DNA of 63,805 bases from Lachnospiraceae bacterium (GTDB lineage: Bacteria > Bacillota > Clostridia > Lachnospirales > Lachnospiraceae). A model generated the notes under the pieces. It was not told the DNA's origin and did no database searches. It saw only the letters and a list, made by a program, of their open reading frames with translations. Below are positions 27,954 through 41,636 of the stretch, in pieces (position 1 is the first letter of the stretch; the number at the start of each line of letters is the position of its first letter). The stretch lies in the NCBI GenBank assembly GCA_015057435.1, contig SVEJ01000013.1, positions 1 through 63,805 of the forward strand. The letters run 5' to 3'. A program made the translations under genes and the position numbers.

Positions 27954-28802
27954 TTATTCCGTTCCAAGATATGCCTTAAGTTCATTGATGCATGCAGTGC
28001 AATCCGCAACACCAAGATCATACATCTCCTGCAACTTATTCTCATCACGTTCAATTCGGTCAATCGCTACCGTTCTTGACGGACGAATCACAAAAATTTC
28101 TTTCTTGTTCTCCATATCAATAATCTTTTCTACCGTCGCATTATAATTCTTATGACGATTCATCACCGTATCAACAAAAGCCTTATACTTACGATATACA
28201 AACTTATATAATCCCGCATGGGAAGCCGGTTTTTTCCGATAATCTAACGGTCTGGTCAATACAACTATAATTTTATCATATCCCATTTTCATCATCTGCT
28301 CTATCGGAATGCTGTCTGAAACACCGCCATCAAGATACTTCTTACCGTCAATCTCGACAATCTTAGAAACAAGTGGCATTGCCGATGTTGCACGTAACAC
28401 TTCCATCTCATCAAAGAGATTATGAAGCTTTACATATTCAGGTTTACCCGTTTCCACATTTGTAAGTGTTGCATAGAAATCTACGCCTGACTGTTCAAAT
28501 GTTGCCTGGTCGAATACATCTAACTTCTGTGGCACAGTATAATACGCAAAATCCTTATTAATAATATTACCTGTCTTAAAAAATGACGACCATCCCATAT
28601 ATCGTTTGTCATTTGCAAAGCGCTTATTATAGCGAATCACACGTCCTTTTTGCTTAGACGGATAATTCACACCGAACAACACGCCCGCAGAAACACCAAT
28701 AATTCCGTCTACTGCGATTTCTTCATCTAAAAACACATCCAGCACGCCGCCTGTGTACATACCACGCATAGCGCCGCCTTCTAACACCAAACCTACTCGC
28801 AT
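27954..28802 (-). CDS. Patatin-like phospholipase
   Basis: A 282-residue serine acyl hydrolase of the bacterial YjjU-like group. Seen are the oxyanion-hole loop LEGGAMRGMYTGG, the nucleophile elbow GVSAG (Ser38) and the catalytic Asp in YLDGGVSDSIPI (Asp158), forming the usual Ser-Asp dyad. No signal peptide is present, so it is probably cytoplasmic and acts on membrane lipid. It lies 52 bp downstream of the four-gene conserved-unknown locus and upstream of the HAD gene. Confidence 0.92.
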   Translation of the reverse strand: MRVGLVLEGGAMRGMYTGGVLDVFLDEEIAVDGIIGVSAGVLFGVNYPSKQKGRVIRYNKRFANDKRYMGWSSFFKTGNIINKDFAYYTVPQKLDVFDQATFEQSGVDFYATLTNVETGKPEYVKLHNLFDEMEVLRATSAMPLVSKIVEIDGKKYLDGGVSDSIPIEQMMKMGYDKIIVVLTRPLDYRKKPASHAGLYKFVYRKYKAFVDTVMNRHKNYNATVEKIIDMENKKEIFVIRPSRTVAIDRIERDENKLQEMYDLGVADCTACINELKAYLGTE

Positions 28803-28854: not shown

Positions 28855-30036
28855 TCATTGCAAATTAATATGATATAATTCTAATTCCCGCTTCACCTGA
28901 TTGCGCAACGACGGATCTGCTTTCAACATTTCCTTAATATCCTTAAGACCTGAAAGACGCAAATCTTCATTATACGCAATCAATTCTCGTAGCTTTTGCC
29001 TTCTAACATTCAAAGAATGTTTTACCTCTACCATCTCTCTGGCATCAATCAAAGCCAAAGACTGTTTCGCCCAGATATCCGGGTCTTTCACACCGTACGA
29101 GAATAATAGTTTCGTAAGTGCATCCGAAAATTCACGAAGATCTCCTGTCGTTCTCTGATACTTGCGTACTTCATCAACCATAATCAAATATTGTTCATAC
29201 AGATATTCAAGTTCACGCAAACTCTTTATCTTATATTTCCCATAAAGATACTCCAACGTCGATGTGTTGTTAATGTACTTAATCTTCACCTTATTAAGGA
29301 GATTGATTGCACGATTCTCCCTGATTTCAGACATCTTGAACTCATATGATAGCTTGCGATAATTGACCACCACCAATGCAGTCATAGACAAGACAACAAG
29401 TAACATCAAAAGAATCGGAATTAACAACGTATTCTTTGTAAGCCATCCGACAACTGCAAGCGTCAAAACAAGTAATGCTGAAACCGTTCCAAAAACAATT
29501 AAAAACAGACGCAATTTGCTCTGCTGTTCCTCAATCGAAGCCTGAATATATTCCTGAGAATTCTTCTCACCTTCTAGATGTTTCATGTCGCGTTTAATCT
29601 TCATATCCATATCTTCGAGATCCTTCAGCTGTAAAAAAACCTCACTGAGTTCTTTTTCCATCCCCTGAATCATACGGAAATTCTCATCACTAATTCTGTC
29701 ATCCGAATGCAGAAACTGTGTTGTTTCATTCTCTAAGAATGCAATCTTTTTTGCAATATCAAGCACTTCTTTTCTCACAGCATCCGGAAGCTCTTCAATT
29801 GTCTGTATGTCAGTAAAATACGATGTAACCATCTCATATTCCACGCGCAACTCTTCCATCTGATACGTTGCTTCGACAATCTGGTCACATTTGAAAACCA
29901 CATCATCACCCGGAGCATTCTCCTGCATTTTCTTTTCCTGTTTCGCTAAGAAGCTGTCAATACTCTCATATTCAAATGTCTCTTCGGTAACTTCTGTCTT
30001 TGTAAAAAGCTCCTTTACCGTATCTAATAATTTCAT
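28855..30036 (-). CDS. Membrane-embedded coiled-coil protein of unknown function
   Basis: A 393-residue protein with long charged helical stretches on both sides of two closely spaced membrane helices (about residues 180-200 and 205-227: FGTVSALLVLTLAVVGWL and LIPILLMLLVVLSMTALVVV). This gives a hairpin membrane anchor with both coiled-coil arms on the same, presumably cytoplasmic, side. No enzyme motif is seen. GGAG and spacing support the start. It is the fourth gene of the locus that begins at 35788 and may dock the other products at the membrane. Confidence 0.75.
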   Translation of the reverse strand: MKLLDTVKELFTKTEVTEETFEYESIDSFLAKQEKKMQENAPGDDVVFKCDQIVEATYQMEELRVEYEMVTSYFTDIQTIEELPDAVRKEVLDIAKKIAFLENETTQFLHSDDRISDENFRMIQGMEKELSEVFLQLKDLEDMDMKIKRDMKHLEGEKNSQEYIQASIEEQQSKLRLFLIVFGTVSALLVLTLAVVGWLTKNTLLIPILLMLLVVLSMTALVVVNYRKLSYEFKMSEIRENRAINLLNKVKIKYINNTSTLEYLYGKYKIKSLRELEYLYEQYLIMVDEVRKYQRTTGDLREFSDALTKLLFSYGVKDPDIWAKQSLALIDAREMVEVKHSLNVRRQKLRELIAYNEDLRLSGLKDIKEMLKADPSLRNQVKRELELYHINLQ

Positions 30037-30064
30037 ATCGTTGCTCCTTAATCGTATCCTCTTT

Positions 30065-30898
30065 CTATACTATCTGCTCCCGGAATTCCTTCTTCAGCTT
30101 TTCAACCACTGTATCCATACGTTTATTAAAATCCGTCAGATTATTCTTCTCGTAATGGAACATCGCCTTTTCCATTCGATGATAAAGCGGTGATCCTTTC
30201 ACATCCTGTGTTGCATCATCAATCGCATCATAGATGCCATCAAGAAATTCCAAAACTTCGTATTGTTTTGCTGCAGTCTCTACTTCCGCACGGGATTTCA
30301 TCGTTGCCATCAACAACAGATATTGGTAGATGGAATCTTTGTTACCCGTCAGCATATATGCTTTTTTATAAGACTTCATCGCTTCTTCTAATTCAAAATA
30401 ATTCGCCAACGCAACTGCTCTGTTATGATAAATAGCACCTAAAAAAGACGCATCATTCATATCAGGATACTGATCAATTATCTCGTCATATACGCTGCAA
30501 GCTTTCACATACTTGCGATAGCGAAGGAAACCATCTGCTTGTTTCTTCCGAAAACGTGGTGCACTCAATCCTTTCATTCTTTCTATCTGCAAAATGAATT
30601 CTTTTACTTCCGGTATTGTATAAAAATCCTTGTGTGTCAAAATTGTAGTAAGAAGATCCGTTAGGTCTGTCGTCTCCTTTTCTTTTACTACACGAAGCTT
30701 CAACGCAAGATCTTCCATTCCTAATTCTTTCTCAATCCAGTCAAACATCTTTTTTCCAACATATTCTTCTGAAATCAGAGCGATATTATTATAGACATAA
30801 TAACAAAGTTCCTCATAAGAAAATACTTCAATCTTGGTGTTCGGAAAAATGTATGAAGTTGTTGCCGGCTTTGTATCACAAAGTATTACTCTTGCCAT
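30065..30898 (-). CDS. TPR-like helical protein of unknown function
   Basis: A 277-residue soluble helical protein. The middle has a pattern of paired helices reminiscent of tetratricopeptide repeats (AIYHNRAVALANYFELEEAM and SYKKAYMLTGNKDSIYQYLL). The N terminus begins ARVILCDTKPATTSY. No catalytic motif is present. AGGAG supports the ATG at 30898. It lies between the Hsp70-fold gene (32 bp upstream) and the membrane coiled-coil gene (28 bp downstream), so it probably acts as an adaptor in the same complex; this is inference. Confidence 0.75.
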   Translation of the reverse strand: MARVILCDTKPATTSYIFPNTKIEVFSYEELCYYVYNNIALISEEYVGKKMFDWIEKELGMEDLALKLRVVKEKETTDLTDLLTTILTHKDFYTIPEVKEFILQIERMKGLSAPRFRKKQADGFLRYRKYVKACSVYDEIIDQYPDMNDASFLGAIYHNRAVALANYFELEEAMKSYKKAYMLTGNKDSIYQYLLLMATMKSRAEVETAAKQYEVLEFLDGIYDAIDDATQDVKGSPLYHRMEKAMFHYEKNNLTDFNKRMDTVVEKLKKEFREQIV

Positions 30899-30930
30899 AG
30901 TATCTCCTCTTTCTTATCCCTCGTATTCTC

Positions 30931-32190
30931 TCAAGAACCAATCGAAAAATCTTTTCTGTATATCTTATTCGTTGTCGGATAAATGCTACCAAAACCCATA
31001 TCTCGAATAATAATCGCACCCATTTTCTCATCATACAATTCGACAGACAACGATAGCTTAGTCGTCTTAGGTGGTCTCTTTGGCAACCCGTGTATTTCAA
31101 TGACTTCCTTAATTACATCTTTGGAAATCTTGTCCTTGTAAATCATCTCAACACGGTTCGTGTCATCTAAGAACAAGGTGACCGTTCCGTTCATGTTGTA
31201 CCATTCTTTTCCACCGATTGCAATCGGGCAAAAACGATTACGGCCGTCCACTTCTCCCACACTTACACCAATATCAAACGGTATGCTGCCGGCAGATAAG
31301 AAGATACAATCTTTTCCTTCTTCATATGCGCCAAATCTTGCATGATAGCAGGCGCCTTTCGTATATATATTCTGCCCCATGAACACTCTTCGTCCCTCGC
31401 ACAAAACCTTGGTTGCTTCTTCAATCCATTGGTCGTTAAATCCCGGACCCGTAAGATAAACAGTCGAAATATATGTTTCTTTCATACGCGTTCTTGCCAG
31501 TTCAGCAAAATGCTTATCCAACCATTCCACGTCTTCAAACAACATCTTGTACGACATATCTTCTCTCATGTTCTCATGACTGATAGAGTAAATCTGTGTT
31601 TTCCCTTGATAACGCTTATCAATGCGATAATAATCCATTCCTTCTGTTCCATACTCAAACATCGAGACACTGTTCGTACGAAGCTTGTCATCCTGTCGCA
31701 TCACATATTGATAAAATGCATTCTCATGGCTCATCACATGAAACGAATCACGTGACAGGTGCAGTTCTTTTCTAAGCTGCCCTAATGTCTTATACACAAT
31801 CGGATGATACTTTTCTAGCGTAATTGTAATTCCTTTCAAGAGATATTCCTGTGAACGCGAAAGAAAATCCTCAATATGTGTCTTTAACATAATAAGCAAC
31901 AACACCTCATACGTATAAGATGCACCGTCAATCACTACATGATTGGCTGAATCAATGTTAGCAAGAACATCTTCCACAATTGTGCCTTCTTTTTGAAAAC
32001 GCACAGCACTTACATTATTACCCACATACCATTTCTTTTCCGTCGGAGCATAGAACATAACATTAGGAAGCTGATATGTTTCCGAATTATGCAATTGATA
32101 AATCGATTCCGGTTCCTTCTTATCTTCTCTGAAAAAACTTAACTGTATGTTTTTTTTGCAAAGATCCAAACCAATATAAATATCTTTCAC
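30931..32190 (-). CDS. Hsp70/actin-fold protein, DUF5716-like
   Basis: About 419 residues. Several spots match the actin/Hsp70 ATPase outline: DIYIGLDLCKKNIQLSF at the start (phosphate-1), SMFEYGTEGMDYYRI in the middle (phosphate-2 position, but lacking the usual DxGGGT), and TVYLTGPGFNDQW with NIYTKGACYHA (adenosine motif and its follow-on helix). The phosphate-2 change suggests weakened or altered ATP use. The assignment to DUF5716 is from recall of the family and the neighbouring DUF5717-like gene, not a search. AGAGGAG fits a GTG start at 32190 better than the ATG at 32214. Confidence 0.75.
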   Translation of the reverse strand: MKDIYIGLDLCKKNIQLSFFREDKKEPESIYQLHNSETYQLPNVMFYAPTEKKWYVGNNVSAVRFQKEGTIVEDVLANIDSANHVVIDGASYTYEVLLLIMLKTHIEDFLSRSQEYLLKGITITLEKYHPIVYKTLGQLRKELHLSRDSFHVMSHENAFYQYVMRQDDKLRTNSVSMFEYGTEGMDYYRIDKRYQGKTQIYSISHENMREDMSYKMLFEDVEWLDKHFAELARTRMKETYISTVYLTGPGFNDQWIEEATKVLCEGRRVFMGQNIYTKGACYHARFGAYEEGKDCIFLSAGSIPFDIGVSVGEVDGRNRFCPIAIGGKEWYNMNGTVTLFLDDTNRVEMIYKDKISKDVIKEVIEIHGLPKRPPKTTKLSLSVELYDEKMGAIIIRDMGFGSIYPTTNKIYRKDFSIGS

Positions 32191-32215
32191 GTTCCATTCT
32201 CCTCTTTCGTTCATT

Positions 32216-35200
32216 CTAATCCATCAGACTCAAGTTCTCTTCAACAATCGCGGACAACTTAAGATAGTGATCAATCTTATTAATCAGCATCTGATTCTCA
32301 CCAATTTCCTGATTAACAAGCATCGAATTGAGCATTTCAAAACGGTTTTCATATGCTTCCGTTTCTCCCTTTGCCTTCATTCCTTCACTTTCATATATTT
32401 TCGTTACCTGTTCCATTCCATCCGGCATCCGGTACAGAAGATTCTCACCATGGAACAGTACAAACTCTTTCATGTAATACCCCGGTAAAACTTCTATCAT
32501 TCTCGCTTTCTTGGTATATTCCGGTTTTTCCACACCGGACTGAATACCATATTCGAACGTAATGTGCATACCTGCTTTTCCCTTTGTCACAACGTATGTC
32601 ATAAGGAATAAGTCTTTCGGTAACTTGATGTATTTTTTGAAGCCTCTAAAGAACGGCAACATAATACCGCGTTTCAAAAAACTTTCTACTTGTTGCTTAA
32701 TCCATGTAAGCTCCTCTTCCTCAAGCTTCACTTTTCTACTCAAGAACAAAAGCAATGCAGCATAGCACATGTCATCATCCCAATCACCGGAAAGCATCTG
32801 CGCGTACAACGTTACAAAGAAATCTTCCGGAATTTCCTTTTCTTCTACAAGATACGCAAATGATGCACGTTTCAAAAATGCTTTCATAACCATTCCGTGC
32901 TTTCTCTTTTTCGCATACGTTGCAAAAACCTTGAATATGTCGCTGTGCCATTTTTCTGTGTACAGCGTTTCGCACAGAATATTCTCTTCTAACATCTCAA
33001 GTCGTGTCAATCTGCTATTCGCACGTTTCCACAACTTAATCATATCTTTAATGCAGCTTTGGTAGTGATCCACCAGATAGCTTAGCACAACCGCCGAATC
33101 CTGACCCAATCGATACAAATGTGCCGCAATAGAAATCAACATTTCTTCATTCTCGTACTGCGGAACTTCCTTTACTTTTTCTACTAACTTCACGAGATGT
33201 TCCGGAGCAACACCCTGGTAACCATATCGTTTGATTGCATCATATGCTTTATCATACAACTTACATTGTATGAGATAATTCATATACTCTACGCCACGCT
33301 TAGAAGACACATATTGCATATCTACACGATCAAGGTAACTTCGTAAAATCTCAGTATCCTGTTGTTCGTGATAATATCGTACAATGCCATAGATTGCCTG
33401 TTGCTTTGTCTCTACGCTGATTTCTTCGAACGCAAGTAAATCTCTTGCAATATTCACTTCTTTGGCTTTTGTAGCTTCATACGCACGAAGCGCTCCATAC
33501 TGATAAAGTACATAGCGATAATCATCGTTGGCATATTGCCCGAGAATCTCCATATATTCTTCTTCATCCACAAGCTTTTCCAACTTGTACGGAATCGTAC
33601 TCACATAGCGGTTCTTGTCCTCATCTACAAGCGAAATCACTGCAGATTCCGTAATCATATCTACGTATGCCACATGATTCACAACCGGAACAATCTCTTC
33701 TTTTTCCAATTCCTTATGTGCAACCACAACTGCGACAATCTTATCATTAGAAACTGTGAGTTTGCGTTTAAAAATCACATTAACTATACTTGCAGCAAAA
33801 TGAGGTGTCACCGTCTGAGGTGTCAAAAACTCACTGTACAACACCGACAGATCGTCACTCATATTGCCTTTTACAATCTGTCCTTCCATAAATGCCGTCA
33901 TATTCGGAAGGTAGTCTTCATACTGACCAAGATACTGTCTCTGATTAGAAACAACATTCGCATACAAGTATGCATATTCTTTGTCTGTCAACGTACTCTT
34001 ATAATTAAAGTATCGAAGTACCGAATCCGGAATCAGATCATAGTAGTTCTTGTCCATACTGCGCAGATAATTTTCCTGAATCCCAACAATCTTATAACCA
34101 CACTTAATACCTTCAAGATAATACGGATGATAGATCTTTTCAATCTTGCCCCCTTTTATCAGGAGACTACAGATTATCTGTATAATCTCAGGCTTTTTAT
34201 GTACATCATAAAGCATTGCAAGCAACGAAAATACACGCTTTGAAAATGTCTTCTCACGCGCTGCCAACTGCAAAAATTCCGTCTCTGCTTCTTTGCTTAG
34301 ATAATGATTCTTAAGGCCAAATTTGACCGCAGCTAATTCCACCGGCGTCAACTTCTTCAAAAGCATCGGATCTCTATTAATAAGATCGCAGACCTCTATT
34401 GCAAGAATCGGGCTCTCATAACCACCCATATACAATCCTTCAATCTGCGTAAACAACCATTGTTTGTCTTTTTGATATCTTTCATCAAGATGAATGAGTA
34501 ACCAAAAGTAGAAAAGTTTCTCATCTTCTTTTTCCAATGCCTTTTCTATTTCCTGACATGCTTTCACAATCAATCTTACATCTTTTGACAGCAAGGCTTT
34601 CAGGTACATGGAATAACATCTCTGCTCCTGTCCCTTCATCGCCGGATCCATATCCACTTCCATACGGCGAATCTCCTGGCGTGCGTTGTCTTCCTGTCCT
34701 GCAAGAATACTCATATGAATCATGCCCAACTTATAAATTCCGACACTTGGATCGATGCTGATTAACTTCTGTAAAGAGTCCCTTGTATTCTCAACAAAAG
34801 ACATTAATGAAACCAAGCCTACTCTATAATCCAGGTAATTGTGCAAAAGCGCAGCAATCTCCATCTTACGAACCTTATGGTCATGATTACGATGAACAAG
34901 AATCCGATTCGCCTCTTCAGGTTTCTTAATCGCAATCTGAACCATAATCTGCTGGTATGTATTCTCCAAAACAATGGTACCACTCGTTGTCTCGTTCTCA
35001 TCCAGGTATTCAGGGTCCAACGTATAAGTAAGCTGATACGTATCTCCCAGAAAATCCATACTGCATATTCTGTCCTTAGAAAGCGTAATAAACTTCGCAT
35101 CTGTATGTACATTCAGATTACCGTATCCCCATGTGCTCTTTTTCAAAGTTAAAATGTGTTCTTCGCGCATCTTTGGGAAATTATATTGAAAACGATCATG

Positions 35201-35788
35201 TTCCACTTGTATTGTAAGCGCGCGTTTTTTGTGTATATATACCAAAAACTCCTCTAATGCCAGATTCTTATCAAGGGATACACGTAGACTTCTGTACGCT
35301 TGCAAGTATTCTTCATTGCCTTGTAACAATGTATTTGCAAATTCATCAGAACAAAAAATCTGTAATGCTTTCTCCCAATCTTCTTCCGCGAGTGCAGAGA
35401 ATTTCATAAGGTCTTCTAAAGCAAATCCGTTGACATCAATAAATGGTGCAACAATCTCTATGTTATAAGGAATTTCTTTCTCTAAACCGTTCCCGATCAA
35501 ATGCAATTTGCCTTCATAAATCGTACCACGCTTTTTATTGCCTGCGTCAAATGAAAATGTAATCTCACATTTTTTACCAATGATACTGTGGTCATTCAGG
35601 CACAACAAATAAGCATCATCATACACCATCATCTTCACCGGCACATCATTATCTGATGTCACTTCGATACTTCCCGTGTACATGCTACCTGCTTCAATCT
35701 TTAATTGCAAATAATTCTTCGATAGGGACACACTTGGATAATCAACAAAAAAGTCTCCCTTTGCATATTGTTCTACCTTACTCTTCAT
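32216..35788 (-). CDS. Giant cytoplasmic Ig-like plus helical-repeat protein, DUF5717-like
   Basis: About 1190 residues with no signal peptide or membrane helix. The N-terminal about 320 residues look like two beta-sandwich modules around a helical insert (IEAGSMYTGSIEVTSDNDVP and TSGTIVLENTYQQIMVQIAI). The rest is almost all helical and resembles degenerate TPR or HEAT arrays. It opens the locus and is followed, 25 bp after its stop, by the Hsp70-fold gene. GGAG selects the ATG at 35788. The DUF5717 label rests on length, layout and neighbour. Function is unknown; the design suggests a large scaffold or client-binding partner. Confidence 0.75.
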   Translation of the reverse strand: MKSKVEQYAKGDFFVDYPSVSLSKNYLQLKIEAGSMYTGSIEVTSDNDVPVKMMVYDDAYLLCLNDHSIIGKKCEITFSFDAGNKKRGTIYEGKLHLIGNGLEKEIPYNIEIVAPFIDVNGFALEDLMKFSALAEEDWEKALQIFCSDEFANTLLQGNEEYLQAYRSLRVSLDKNLALEEFLVYIHKKRALTIQVEHDRFQYNFPKMREEHILTLKKSTWGYGNLNVHTDAKFITLSKDRICSMDFLGDTYQLTYTLDPEYLDENETTSGTIVLENTYQQIMVQIAIKKPEEANRILVHRNHDHKVRKMEIAALLHNYLDYRVGLVSLMSFVENTRDSLQKLISIDPSVGIYKLGMIHMSILAGQEDNARQEIRRMEVDMDPAMKGQEQRCYSMYLKALLSKDVRLIVKACQEIEKALEKEDEKLFYFWLLIHLDERYQKDKQWLFTQIEGLYMGGYESPILAIEVCDLINRDPMLLKKLTPVELAAVKFGLKNHYLSKEAETEFLQLAAREKTFSKRVFSLLAMLYDVHKKPEIIQIICSLLIKGGKIEKIYHPYYLEGIKCGYKIVGIQENYLRSMDKNYYDLIPDSVLRYFNYKSTLTDKEYAYLYANVVSNQRQYLGQYEDYLPNMTAFMEGQIVKGNMSDDLSVLYSEFLTPQTVTPHFAASIVNVIFKRKLTVSNDKIVAVVVAHKELEKEEIVPVVNHVAYVDMITESAVISLVDEDKNRYVSTIPYKLEKLVDEEEYMEILGQYANDDYRYVLYQYGALRAYEATKAKEVNIARDLLAFEEISVETKQQAIYGIVRYYHEQQDTEILRSYLDRVDMQYVSSKRGVEYMNYLIQCKLYDKAYDAIKRYGYQGVAPEHLVKLVEKVKEVPQYENEEMLISIAAHLYRLGQDSAVVLSYLVDHYQSCIKDMIKLWKRANSRLTRLEMLEENILCETLYTEKWHSDIFKVFATYAKKRKHGMVMKAFLKRASFAYLVEEKEIPEDFFVTLYAQMLSGDWDDDMCYAALLLFLSRKVKLEEEELTWIKQQVESFLKRGIMLPFFRGFKKYIKLPKDLFLMTYVVTKGKAGMHITFEYGIQSGVEKPEYTKKARMIEVLPGYYMKEFVLFHGENLLYRMPDGMEQVTKIYESEGMKAKGETEAYENRFEMLNSMLVNQEIGENQMLINKIDHYLKLSAIVEENLSLMD

Positions 35789-35979
35789 CGTAACTCCACA
35801 CATACCTTTCGTATGTTATTCTTATTCTTCTTGATGTTTTATTACAGAAAGTGTTATAATTACCGTATTAGTTATTCAAAGTGAATATTTCACGACACTA
35901 TAACTCTTTGATTATATCAAATTTTGATTCACAATGAAAGAACAAATAGCAATTACACTATAGAAAGAAGGGTAATTTT

Positions 35980-38904: not shown

Positions 38905-40347
38905 TCACTCTATTAAGCTGGATATTAAAACTAAGTTATCATAGCTTAGTGTTACATCTTTTCCATCGTCTTCAAAGTTTACCGTGTAACTTTTTGACAA
39001 ACAGCCCGTTTGGCTAAACGTTATTATATGACTTCCCGTCACTTTTGTAAAGGAAATCGGCGCAATTCCTAAATATTCTCCATCAAAATACACACTTGCT
39101 CCAATCGGTGCTGTTATAATTACTTTGTTCTTTGTTTTTTCTCCAATTGCAGTAGAGACATCCTTTACATCGGAATCCTTATCCTTTGTGGACTCTTCGG
39201 TTGTCGTTTCCTCTTTTTTGTCTTCTTTTGTTGTTCCGTCATTCGTTGTAGCCTCTGTCGTCTTATCTTTCTTTGTAGTACTTTCCGCCTTGGTCGTCGA
39301 ATCCTCTTTCTTGTCATCCTTTTCGTCCGACTTTTTCAGTTCATATTCCCGAATCTTATAAGCTGCATTCACAGTAAATGTTGCACTATAACTTTCATAC
39401 CCTTCAGCCATAATATGAATGACATGTTTGCCATACGTCAAATCAATCGAGCCCTCTGTGTTCACGCGCTTGCGATCAATATATACCTTCGCATTCGCAG
39501 GTGAAACATCAAACATAACCGAACCAATCTGTTTCGGCTCAATTGCAATATCCGCTAACGAAACATCTATCTCTTGATTCTTAACAACTTCCACTTTCTT
39601 TGTTCCGACATACTCATCCTTCGTAATACGCAGTTCATATGTTCCTTCACGAACCGTAAGAAGCATCTCCTCTGTAACCGGAACAATCACATCATAACCA
39701 ACCTCGACCATACCGCCAATATAGCCTGCATAATCGTGTAATCGAAGATATCCATGTCCCAACTCCACATAGATAGAACATATCCGATCACGATACATCC
39801 ACATAGTTAATTGGTCTTCCGAACAGATTTCATTCAAAGCAATCTCAACATTATCAGAAAATACCCGAACATCATCACTCATCTGATATGTCGTTCCGTT
39901 GATACGAACCTTATGTTCTACATAATCAAAAATGGCTCCGGACACATCATCCACTCTTGCAACACCTTCATCATCTGTCAGATAAAGCGATATCAATTTG
40001 TCCCGATTCGCGTCATACGTCACATCGACAACACTACCCAGCTTCACATCCGACATCAGAATCAGATCTCCGTATTGATTACGTACATCTGCACCGACCG
40101 AAAATGACAACTGATATTCCACTTCTCTTCCCAGTGTATAGATGCAAATTTCTCCATTCACCTCATCCAAATGAGAAACCACACCGAACAATTTCTCTTC
40201 TTGCTCCGGTTCAATCTCATCATCATAGGTAGGCGCAACCACCGGCTCATTACATCCGGTAACACCTATCATAAAAATACACATGACAAAAAGTAGAACA
40301 TGCTGCAATCGATTTATCTGTTTTTGCAATGTCTTTTGTATCTTCAT
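38905..40347 (-). CDS. PEGA-domain lipoprotein
   Basis: A 480-residue surface lipoprotein. The signal ends in lipobox VTGC (about residue 32). The first half is beta-rich and unassigned. It is followed by one PEGA domain (about 270-340, GSVMFDVSPANAKVYIDRKR), a Thr/Lys/Glu-rich linker of about 70 residues, and a second PEGA domain near the C terminus (VIITAPIGASVYFDGEYLG). PEGA repeats occur in many surface proteins and are thought to mediate envelope contacts. Co-transcription with the phosphosugar mutase is likely from the 15-bp gap. A TATAAT-like -10 box lies at 40406-40411. Confidence 0.88.
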   Translation of the reverse strand: MKIQKTLQKQINRLQHVLLFVMCIFMIGVTGCNEPVVAPTYDDEIEPEQEEKLFGVVSHLDEVNGEICIYTLGREVEYQLSFSVGADVRNQYGDLILMSDVKLGSVVDVTYDANRDKLISLYLTDDEGVARVDDVSGAIFDYVEHKVRINGTTYQMSDDVRVFSDNVEIALNEICSEDQLTMWMYRDRICSIYVELGHGYLRLHDYAGYIGGMVEVGYDVIVPVTEEMLLTVREGTYELRITKDEYVGTKKVEVVKNQEIDVSLADIAIEPKQIGSVMFDVSPANAKVYIDRKRVNTEGSIDLTYGKHVIHIMAEGYESYSATFTVNAAYKIREYELKKSDEKDDKKEDSTTKAESTTKKDKTTEATTNDGTTKEDKKEETTTEESTKDKDSDVKDVSTAIGEKTKNKVIITAPIGASVYFDGEYLGIAPISFTKVTGSHIITFSQTGCLSKSYTVNFEDDGKDVTLSYDNLVLISSLIE

Positions 40348-40418: not shown

Positions 40419-41636
40419 TCAGCACAAATGAAAAGCATAATATTGTTCTAACATTTCATTTTTTTCCTTTTCCTGTTCAATTAACATGAGAAGTTTTTCC
40501 AAGTATTTCGGAGATAAAAATGCTTTATTACTATTGTAATATCCATTCGCAATCTTCCAAAACTTTTCCGGATACGAAAACAGAATATACATGTAGCGAT
40601 AGTCGTTTTTATCAAGCGCAATCTTTTTACTATATGCACCTAATATCAACTCAAGCATCTCATAGTCAAAATGATTCTTTTCCATCGCCTTTCTCGTAAA
40701 CTGATATAGGTCATCCAATTGATTGCCTCTTGTAAACTTTTCAAAATGAACGACCGAAACCTGTTTACCATCCATAAGCACATTGTGCTGATTGTAGTTA
40801 CCGTGACATACGCCATAATGTAAAGGCATTTCACTTTTCCCGGAATGGTCCTGTGTATTTTTCTCATCAAGGAGTGTTTTTTCGCAATTGAGTCCCATCT
40901 CATAATAATCATCAAACGTCTTTAAAAACAACTCTTCGAATTGATTCTTACGTTTTACTTTCTTTACATACTTTTTGATCTTCCCAAGCTCTCTGTTCTT
41001 CCTATACAAGTTTTTTCTCATTCTGTCCATTTCGTTCTCACATGCAATCACTTCCTGTTTGGCAGCTGTTCCTCTTTCTTCCTTACAATCCATACACTCC
41101 GGTGTTTCCATTTCTTTTATGAATTCTTTGATTCCTGCCGGCGTCATTGCATATATTCGAGCAAGATTATCAAGTTCGGTCCCTTCTCGTAATGCTTCTT
41201 TTATCTCCTTATATTGATTCTGTCTCTTTTCGTTCTTGGTTCGTTCCCATTCTGCATCAAAGACACTTGACACACGTTGCCCTGCAAGATGCAAGTCCGC
41301 CAGCTTTTCCACTGCCAAGATCATATCAGCGAGATTATGCATATCACATTCTTCTCCTGCAAAATATTTTTTCAACACAAAAGGTTGATGATATCTGTCA
41401 TATGTAAGCAAGTCTCCTTCTTTATTGAGAAGGAGCATATCAATATCACCAAAACCTTCCTGCTCAAAAAGTGTTTTTAATACGTATTCCGCTTCCAAGC
41501 GTCCAATACTACCCCTGAACGGTTCCACTATAAAAACTCCCTCTTTTGCATCGATAATAGTAGCACCTCTCCCCCTTTTTGTAGCAAGCACTTCTATATC
41601 ATATTTTTCATACACATCAGCCATCTTGTCAGCCAT
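40419..41636 (-). CDS. CotS-like spore-coat/aminoglycoside-phosphotransferase-fold protein, probable pseudokinase
   Basis: A 405-residue protein whose start (VLATKRGRGATIIDAKEGVF) and C-terminal lobe match the CotS/YutH-type kinase fold. The catalytic-loop equivalent reads CHGNYNQHNVL, with Asn where active kinases have the catalytic Asp. The metal-binding DFD/DFE site reads VVHFEKF, with His for Asp. Both acidic residues are therefore lost, arguing for a structural role, as in spore-coat assembly. A long charged coiled-coil insert (about residues 130-260) precedes the catalytic lobe. GAGGGG supports the start. Confidence 0.8.
   Translation of the reverse strand: MADKMADVYEKYDIEVLATKRGRGATIIDAKEGVFIVEPFRGSIGRLEAEYVLKTLFEQEGFGDIDMLLLNKEGDLLTYDRYHQPFVLKKYFAGEECDMHNLADMILAVEKLADLHLAGQRVSSVFDAEWERTKNEKRQNQYKEIKEALREGTELDNLARIYAMTPAGIKEFIKEMETPECMDCKEERGTAAKQEVIACENEMDRMRKNLYRKNRELGKIKKYVKKVKRKNQFEELFLKTFDDYYEMGLNCEKTLLDEKNTQDHSGKSEMPLHYGVCHGNYNQHNVLMDGKQVSVVHFEKFTRGNQLDDLYQFTRKAMEKNHFDYEMLELILGAYSKKIALDKNDYRYMYILFSYPEKFWKIANGYYNSNKAFLSPKYLEKLLMLIEQEKEKNEMLEQYYAFHLC

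Follow-up and report, generated by a model that had tools for sequence, protein, structure and literature searches.

The locus

The window analysed here is a 63,805-nucleotide stretch of DNA from a Lachnospiraceae bacterium (GenBank assembly GCA_015057435.1, contig SVEJ01000013.1, positions 1 to 63,805). Our subject is a locus at positions 28855-35788, in which four open reading frames (ORFs), all on the minus strand, encode in this order a DUF5717 protein, a DUF5716 protein, a TPR protein and a predicted membrane coiled-coil protein. From gene 1 to gene 4 the intergenic gaps are 25, 32 and 28 bp, and the ORF coordinates bear out the tight packing described in a first-pass annotation made from the sequence alone. 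Genes 1 and 2 are members of the Pfam families DUF5717 (PF18984, PF18983) and DUF5716_C (PF18980), for which Pfam states no function, and we found no literature on the function of DUF5716 or DUF5717, or on the locus, in open-access PMC, where a single mention of DUF5716 turned up in an unrelated paper. The comparisons reported below suggest that this locus is a reduced form of a larger Hsp70 chaperone locus found across the order, with an Hsp70 derivative that has lost the ATP-site motifs at its core.

Gene 1 (32216..35788) encodes a protein of 1190 residues without a transmembrane segment, which matches DUF5717_N (E 3.5e-247) and the C-terminal DUF5717 family (E 1.3e-58); an upstream ATG at 35803 would extend it to 1195 residues. 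Its predicted architecture comprises a beta-rich N-terminal part of ~305 residues (34874..35788; profile positions 1-300), which is often an ORF of its own in sister families, followed by a TPR-like solenoid and a C-terminal domain. The protein had earlier been described as combining Ig domains with helical repeats, of which the helical-repeat part stands: the DUF5717 profile of the family gives weak TPR matches (E 0.06), six of the 36 members match TPR_19 (E 0.0022 at best), and the sister-family profile retrieves designed TPR proteins (E 8.4e-9). The Ig part finds no such support, as no Ig family was matched by the N-terminal part in Pfam or in PDB profile searches, its beta-rich nature having been judged by eye.

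Gene 2 (30931..32190) encodes the DUF5716 protein (DUF5716_C, E 2.5e-89), of 419 residues from a GTG start at 32190; starting from the ATG at 32214 would lengthen it to 427, and the GTG corresponds to the same residue as the first start codon in the relatives L066 and L067. Gene 3 (30065..30898) encodes a protein of 277 residues whose TPR region (30347..30547; profile positions about 113-186) gives a weak TPR_2 match in the window protein itself (E 0.0037). Of 36 homologues, 31 match TPR_2 with E values no higher than 1 and as low as 3.1e-8, and the profile also matches TPR structures in the PDB, so that the initial view of a TPR-like protein is confirmed. In five loci (L056, L057, L058, L059, L060) the DUF5716 and TPR genes form a single ORF of 684-723 residues. 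Gene 4 (28855..30036), an optional member of the locus with a homologue following the TPR gene in the sister locus L263, encodes 393 residues with a single hydrophobic stretch at residues 173-229 (29350..29520). A hydropathy scan indicates that this stretch is long enough for two helices, in keeping with the hairpin proposed at first pass, and found none in the other three proteins.

General library searches added little to these assignments. No NCBIfam model scored over its cut-off for any of the four window proteins, PADLOC gave no match to them up to E 1, and no Pfam family was above cut-off for the window's gene 4 protein. Single-sequence PDB searches, run with DUF5716 and DUF5717 only, returned no significant match, and PDB profile searches with gene 4 and with the N-terminal part of DUF5717 returned nothing useful.

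Distribution and gene order in the Lachnospiraceae

The recurrence of DUF5716/DUF5717 genes in the Lachnospiraceae, stated at the outset, is upheld. DUF5716 is present in 145 of 150 genomes sampled at one per genus, the window's own genome included, with one match in 143 of them, two in G129 and one match in two pieces in G137. Three of the five DUF5716-negative genomes have DUF5717 matches; in G029 (93% complete) and G091 (98%) neither family was matched. A single-protein scan of genome contigs gave two loci, and the two close relatives, whose DUF5716 proteins are 81 and 84% identical, are Lachnospiraceae metagenome-assembled genomes from goat gut. Beyond the family, matches to PF18984 in a phylum sample of 398 genomes and to PF18980 in a class sample of 391 genomes, the latter with just three other members of the order among the listed genomes, all fall within the window's family, save one outside the order (G848, E 2.7e-4) that was dropped as spurious, its locus (L194) being by eye a MarR/acetyltransferase-like ORF.

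We surveyed 156 loci including the window, of which 155 were counted after removal of L194, with G129 supplying two. The order DUF5717-DUF5716-TPR on one strand is found in 150 of these 155; no locus has mixed strands, in six of the ordered loci one gene is divided between two ORFs, and the five fusions mentioned above are also among them. In 71 of the 155 gene 4 comes next after the TPR gene. Of the five exceptions, L101, L143 and L171 yielded no DUF5717, in L132 nothing matched the TPR gene, and L186 showed DUF5716 alone, with contig ends cutting the locus in L101 and L171; L143 has DUF5716, TPR and gene 4, and a DUF5717 ORF was not found within 16 kb. Median blastp identities to the window proteins, for alignments over more than 70% of length, are 24, 25, 28 and 32% for genes 1-4. 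The conservation of gene order despite protein identities of ~25% is more than chance, and the homologues are not scattered apart from one another. The flanking genes differ between family loci (20 loci compared), and 15 flanking ORFs were by eye mostly housekeeping-like.

DUF5716 as a degenerate Hsp70

A profile of 66 DUF5716 sequences searched against the PDB retrieved DnaK as the eight best of nine matches (E 1e-6 to 0.15). An hhalign comparison of this profile with 15 DnaK/Hsp70 rows gave a probability (Prob) of 96.9 and E 1.4e-10 over 386 columns, collinear from the first strand of the nucleotide-binding domain (NBD) into the beta-subdomain of the substrate-binding domain (SBD-beta). The SBD-beta counterpart (30985..31215; up to DnaK residue 468) rests on this collinear alignment, the stretch by itself not being significant in the PDB matches, and the protein ends past it, the C-terminal helical lid being absent. 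Control comparisons with DnaK gave Prob 0.1 for DUF5717, 0.2 for gene 4 and 0.8 for the TPR protein, Prob 0.2 for DUF5716 with its columns reversed and at most 1.6 in 30 column shuffles. DUF5716 against MreB, represented by 4 rows only, gave Prob 11.4. On these profile grounds we identify DUF5716 as a degenerate Hsp70 and not an MreB-type actin, which agrees with the earlier suggestion of a degenerate Hsp70 for the 419-residue protein. These results also bear on the notion of a cytoskeleton- or coat-like assembly, in which an actin-fold subunit would sit on a beta-domain/alpha-solenoid scaffold at the membrane. The actin/Hsp70 superfamily homology, the TPR-like solenoid and the membrane hairpin are all compatible with it; however, the similarity is to DnaK, SBD-beta included, and not to MreB (15 and 4 rows, respectively), and the sister loci described below carry GrpE, so that we ranked this notion low after the hhalign comparison and regard it as very improbable.

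Several motifs of the Hsp70 ATP site are missing from 21 DUF5716 rows selected from the 66 and the fused ones. The counterpart of the phosphate-1 loop (32140..32175) reads IGLDLCKKNIQL where Hsp70 has IGIDLGTTNSCV; the GTTN of this loop and the GGGT of phosphate-2 each occur in 0 of 21 rows, and so does Lys70, with one row gapped and with a column alignment that is uncertain at such distance. In the region of Glu171 the EP(T) motif is gone, yet many rows have a Glu a few columns off. Lys70 and Glu171 are catalytic residues of Hsp70 (E. coli numbering). The best conserved stretch of DUF5716 (31345..31395), which can be written GRRVF.G.N.Y.KGACY or, more fully, GRRVF.G.NLYSKGACY, lies around the Hsp70 adenosine motif and the next GA helix. 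Altogether it is quite likely, judging from these motifs, that DUF5716 does not use ATP. As a separate observation, the window's genome encodes, besides DnaK, a second and more divergent Hsp70 (L218, G000:C25), among whose relatives the neighbours include by eye a TPR-like protein in L216 and L217 and a J-like protein in L227.

A larger locus in sister families of the order

An order-level sample of 196 genomes, 22 from the window's family and 174 others, contains DUF5717 in 22/22 and 72/174, respectively. In the sister families it frequently takes up two ORFs, an N-terminal one of ~400 residues (DUF5717-N) and a C-terminal one of ~900 residues (DUF5717-C). We read 20 sister loci (L243-L262), often cut by contig ends, labelling their genes by the best blastp match to the proteins of L246. 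The fuller locus, taken from L246 and L263, runs DUF5717-N, DUF5717-C, HspA, GrpE, HspB, HspC, HspD-VWA, TPR. Among the 20 loci HspA is found in 17, the GrpE-like gene in 15, HspB in 13, HspC in 12 and HspD in 7, with a constant order where present; HspD is in two pieces in L243, and L254 and L255 have no Hsp or GrpE-like gene beside DUF5717.

Pfam matches in L246 are to HSP70 in HspA (E 1.8e-77), to GrpE in the GrpE protein (1.4e-14), to DUF5716_C (1.8e-25) and HSP70 (1.9e-16) in HspB, to HSP70 (2.5e-57) and DUF5716_C (1.2e-10) in HspC and to HSP70 (2.5e-95) together with VWA (1.3e-10) in HspD; PF18980 is thus scored also by the sister-family HspB and HspC. In L243 HspB matches DUF5716_C at E 3.4e-74 and the GrpE protein matches GrpE at 5.4e-12. 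Another HspD is encoded at L265:5995-8073; the Hsp70 and C-terminal VWA parts were matched in its L246 orthologue, which is under every NCBIfam cut-off. Ten of the 20 sister loci have, beside DUF5717-N, a membrane protein of one sequence cluster with a long C-terminal tail (e.g. L251:6196-7644, L260:10828-12150); in the two that were scanned the tail gives weak matches to ZorA, LmuB and SMC models.

Downstream of the Hsp genes, all three stretches read (L263-L265) encode a homologue of the gene 3 TPR protein (E 6e-32 to 3e-38). The next large genes of L263 read by eye as valS and folC, and in the window's family a valS-like cluster is found in 7/20 and a folC-like gene in 3/20 neighbourhoods, the names again being by eye. 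These shared surroundings hint that the locus occupies the same chromosomal place in both groups. The tie between the DUF5716/DUF5717 locus and a larger multi-Hsp70 locus in sister families is new.

Orthology of DUF5716 and HspB

The Hsp70 paralogues of the fuller locus differ sharply in their motifs: GGGT is found in HspA 17/17, HspC 10/10 and HspD 2/2, and in HspB 0/13, as in DUF5716. GTTN follows the same pattern save for one HspC with GTTH, and so does the Lys70 column. Rows of Hsp proteins below 440 residues were dropped, which left just two HspD rows in the trees. We computed a quick tree of 78 rows and a careful tree of 60, from which five long-branch, seven HspA and six DnaK rows had been removed. 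DUF5716 forms one clade in both (100/98 in the careful tree), the HspB of L243 is its sister (100/99), and HspB and DUF5716 together are separate from all other Hsp70s (100/100). By this phylogenetic evidence DUF5716 is the family's orthologue of HspB. In the ten loci that have HspA, HspB and HspC together, the median pairwise identities are 65% for HspA, 62% for HspC, 26% for HspB and 30% for GrpE, and those of the two DUF5717 parts 27% and 24% (8 and 9 of these loci); the evolutionary pace of HspB is like that of the scaffold and unlike that of the ATPases.

Probable loss rather than gain

HspC (E <= 1e-100) occurs in 65 of the 174 order genomes outside the family and in none of the 22 inside it, and HspA and HspD are each absent from the 14 family genomes searched (0/14). 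The loci tell the same story, with no DnaK, DnaJ, HspA, HspD or long GrpE gene in the 156 surveyed (the 64-kb window and otherwise stretches of 5-21 kb, searched with blastp at E <= 1e-8). In a class-wide sample HspC was found in 0/291 genomes, this sample being without a positive control, of which the order sample had one. Outside the family 63 genomes have DUF5717 and HspC, 9 DUF5717 alone, 2 HspC alone and 100 neither (Fisher p 8e-35, uncorrected for kinship), and in some genomes the two genes lie on different contigs. Among the nine with DUF5717 alone, G978, G1029, G1043 and G1079 have HspA and HspD, and G923 has HspA. The remaining four are without HspA, HspC and HspD: G931 (96% complete), G1016 (79%, with DUF5717 at just E 5.9e-5), G1062 (58%) and G1067 (86%). 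G931 keeps DUF5717-N, DUF5717-C and HspB (L249), and G957 and G976, which share its family code, have HspA, HspC and HspD; it apparently represents a separate reduction to DUF5717 and HspB.

Since HspB and HspC coexist across the sister families and DUF5716 falls among the HspB proteins, loss is a simpler account than gain, and it is highly likely, going by these distributions, that HspA, HspC and HspD were lost in the window's family.

Such a loss would raise the question of whether the remnant has turned to the housekeeping machinery. It is conceivable that it works with the general DnaK/DnaJ/GrpE; DUF5717 and the TPR protein would then serve as co-chaperones, and DUF5716 would be a dummy subunit with a regulatory role. 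DnaK and the second Hsp70 are indeed encoded elsewhere in the window's genome, and the fuller locus, with its own GrpE-domain protein and motif-intact Hsp70s, shows that an interface of this kind may exist; in one sister locus (L244:328-2202) a DnaK gene even lies on the same stretch as DUF5717, within about 6 kb. However, DnaK or DnaJ genes are found at none of the 156 family loci within the stretches searched, and we consider such a partnership unlikely.

Other genes of the window

Directly behind gene 4 the window encodes a patatin-like phospholipase with DUF6363 (27954-28802; Pfam). Further away lie a PEGA-domain protein (38905-40347; E 5.3e-17), lipoprotein-like by eye, and a protein with weak TCAD9 (E 5.8e-4) and APH (E 0.005) matches under the cut-offs (40419-41636). 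Promoter-like sites are not more frequent than in shuffled sequence and terminator-like sites are rarer, and dN/dS against L066 and L067 was uninformative, dS being above 1 or not computable.

Interpretation and relation to known systems

We propose that the window locus arose by deletions from an Hsp70 chaperone locus found across the order and now encodes an ATP-free binding scaffold derived from Hsp70, a reading to which, from sequence comparison, we assign a probability of about 0.55. The fuller form would combine a scaffold made of a beta-domain and a TPR solenoid (DUF5717, in most cases as two genes) with HspA, HspC and HspD-VWA as motif-intact Hsp70s, a GrpE-domain protein, the pseudo-Hsp70 HspB, a TPR protein and sometimes the membrane hairpin coiled-coil protein. 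In the window's family the two DUF5717 parts form one gene, HspA, HspC, HspD and GrpE would have gone from the locus, and HspB would survive as DUF5716. The latter may keep the Hsp70 body, NBD and SBD-beta, as a fixed ATP-free module that binds a client or partner constitutively. Such binding appears the most likely mode of action, given that the Hsp70 fold (by homology) and SBD-beta are kept and the ATP-site residues are gone; that clients in particular are held by DUF5716 is a tentative suggestion. DUF5716 would be seated on the solenoid of DUF5717, and the TPR protein would link them as an adaptor. In the sister families GrpE and the motif-intact Hsp70s would represent a drive unit, which the window's family has abandoned. 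The gene order conserved at ~25% identity and the five DUF5716-TPR fusions, the strongest hint, point to one assembly, and DUF5717, DUF5716 and the TPR protein probably form a physical complex.

Gene 4, where present, might hold this assembly at the membrane on its cytoplasmic side, for which the chances seem about even. The locus had been pictured at first as a membrane-docked chaperone-type machine. The sister locus with its motif-intact Hsp70s and GrpE speaks for the chaperone origin; docking is not the essential feature, because gene 4 is found at 71 of 155 loci and a genome-wide search (E 0.001) gave no copy in any of 26 genomes whose loci are without it. In the window's genome there is a further, marginal gene 4 match (E 6.7e-4).

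Several points weigh against this proposal. Taken singly, just 1 of the 66 DUF5716 members matches Pfam HSP70 (E 0.051), so that the case for homology depends on profiles and on HspB as an intermediate. Most DUF5716 rows retain the first Asp-Leu of phosphate-1, motif columns in such distant rows are possibly misaligned, and the ATP site may have been altered instead of lost. In the careful tree the branch joining L262 to DUF5716 and L243 is weaker (93/74), and both trees could be distorted by long branches, several of them above 1; the result holds in the careful tree, from which five of the longest rows were left out. The GrpE-like label denotes a blastp match to the L246 protein (44-292 bits elsewhere), with Pfam run on two only; the absence of the long GrpE-domain protein in the family refers to the loci alone, and gene 4 has a homologue in just one of the three downstream stretches (L263, E 1.2e-45). 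As to the reduction, most other DUF5717 genomes lacking HspC are assembly-poor or have HspA and HspD, and G931 has no TPR or gene 4 match within 17 kb, its reduced set thus differing from that of the window.

The closest known relative of this system is the DnaK/GrpE type of Hsp70 machine, with which it shares the NBD and SBD-beta layout of DUF5716 and, in the sister locus, the motif-intact Hsp70s and the GrpE-domain protein. It differs in that DUF5716 lacks the phosphate-1 threonines, Lys70, the phosphate-2 loop and the lid, and in that the sister locus has four Hsp70 paralogues in a row; nothing in the 20 sister loci matched DnaJ. The CnuD protein of the CoCoNuT systems offers another parallel, being described as an Hsp70-like NBD/SBD protein whose Walker A-like motifs are degenerate, which has HEAT-like repeats and which is predicted to bind RNA (PMC11090510, eLife 2024). 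By analogy with CnuD, the degenerate Hsp70 of the present locus might bind RNA or the ribosome and not unfolded protein, and DUF5716 resembles it in its loss of motifs and its alpha-solenoid partner. In contrast to our locus, CnuD sits in a McrBC-type restriction system with a GTPase and nucleases (PMC11090510). No McrB-type GTPase, CnuC partner, nuclease or RNA-binding domain was detected over cut-off in the four window and ten sister proteins scanned, a subset of all neighbours; moreover, SBD-beta is retained in DUF5716 and CnuD was likened to it by description only; we think RNA binding improbable.

The GAP1-N2 GTPase-centred conflict systems include a class with HSP70, GrpE, a second Hsp70 without the peptide-binding domain, and FNIII-DnaJ or TPR proteins, with VWA parts as well (PMC7159879, eLife 2020). 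The likeness of these parts, the VWA domain of HspD and the fast evolution of the non-catalytic components raise the possibility that the locus derives from an NTP-dependent conflict or defence system that has since been domesticated. However, the second Hsp70 of the described class lacks the peptide-binding domain (PMC7159879), whereas the one studied here lacks the ATP motifs and keeps SBD-beta, and ours is a locus of nearly all genera, single-copy in 143 of the 145 positive ones. No GAP1-N2 or TRAFAC GTPase gene was found among the four window and ten sister proteins scanned (not all neighbours), no effector gene was recognised, PADLOC gave only weak matches for ten sister proteins, and no relative came up in four IMG/VR scans, each made with 5-7 DUF5716 sequences from subsets of the clades. 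A conflict or defence origin seems quite improbable.

If the proposal of a reduced Hsp70 locus is right, the dead Hsp70 and its scaffold may do the essential job, with the ATP-driven Hsp70s as dispensable helpers, and the reduction has apparently happened twice; we put this forward as a possibility somewhat short of even odds. In a dominant gut family the locus occurs in nearly every genus sampled, and its tie to a larger Hsp70-GrpE locus makes a testable chaperone question of two DUF families. It also provides a natural example of a pseudo-Hsp70 that seems to outlast its active paralogues, which bears on whether Hsp70 bodies can serve as ATP-free binding modules. If the reading holds, a core complex of a major gut family would have at its centre an Hsp70 that has ceased to use ATP.

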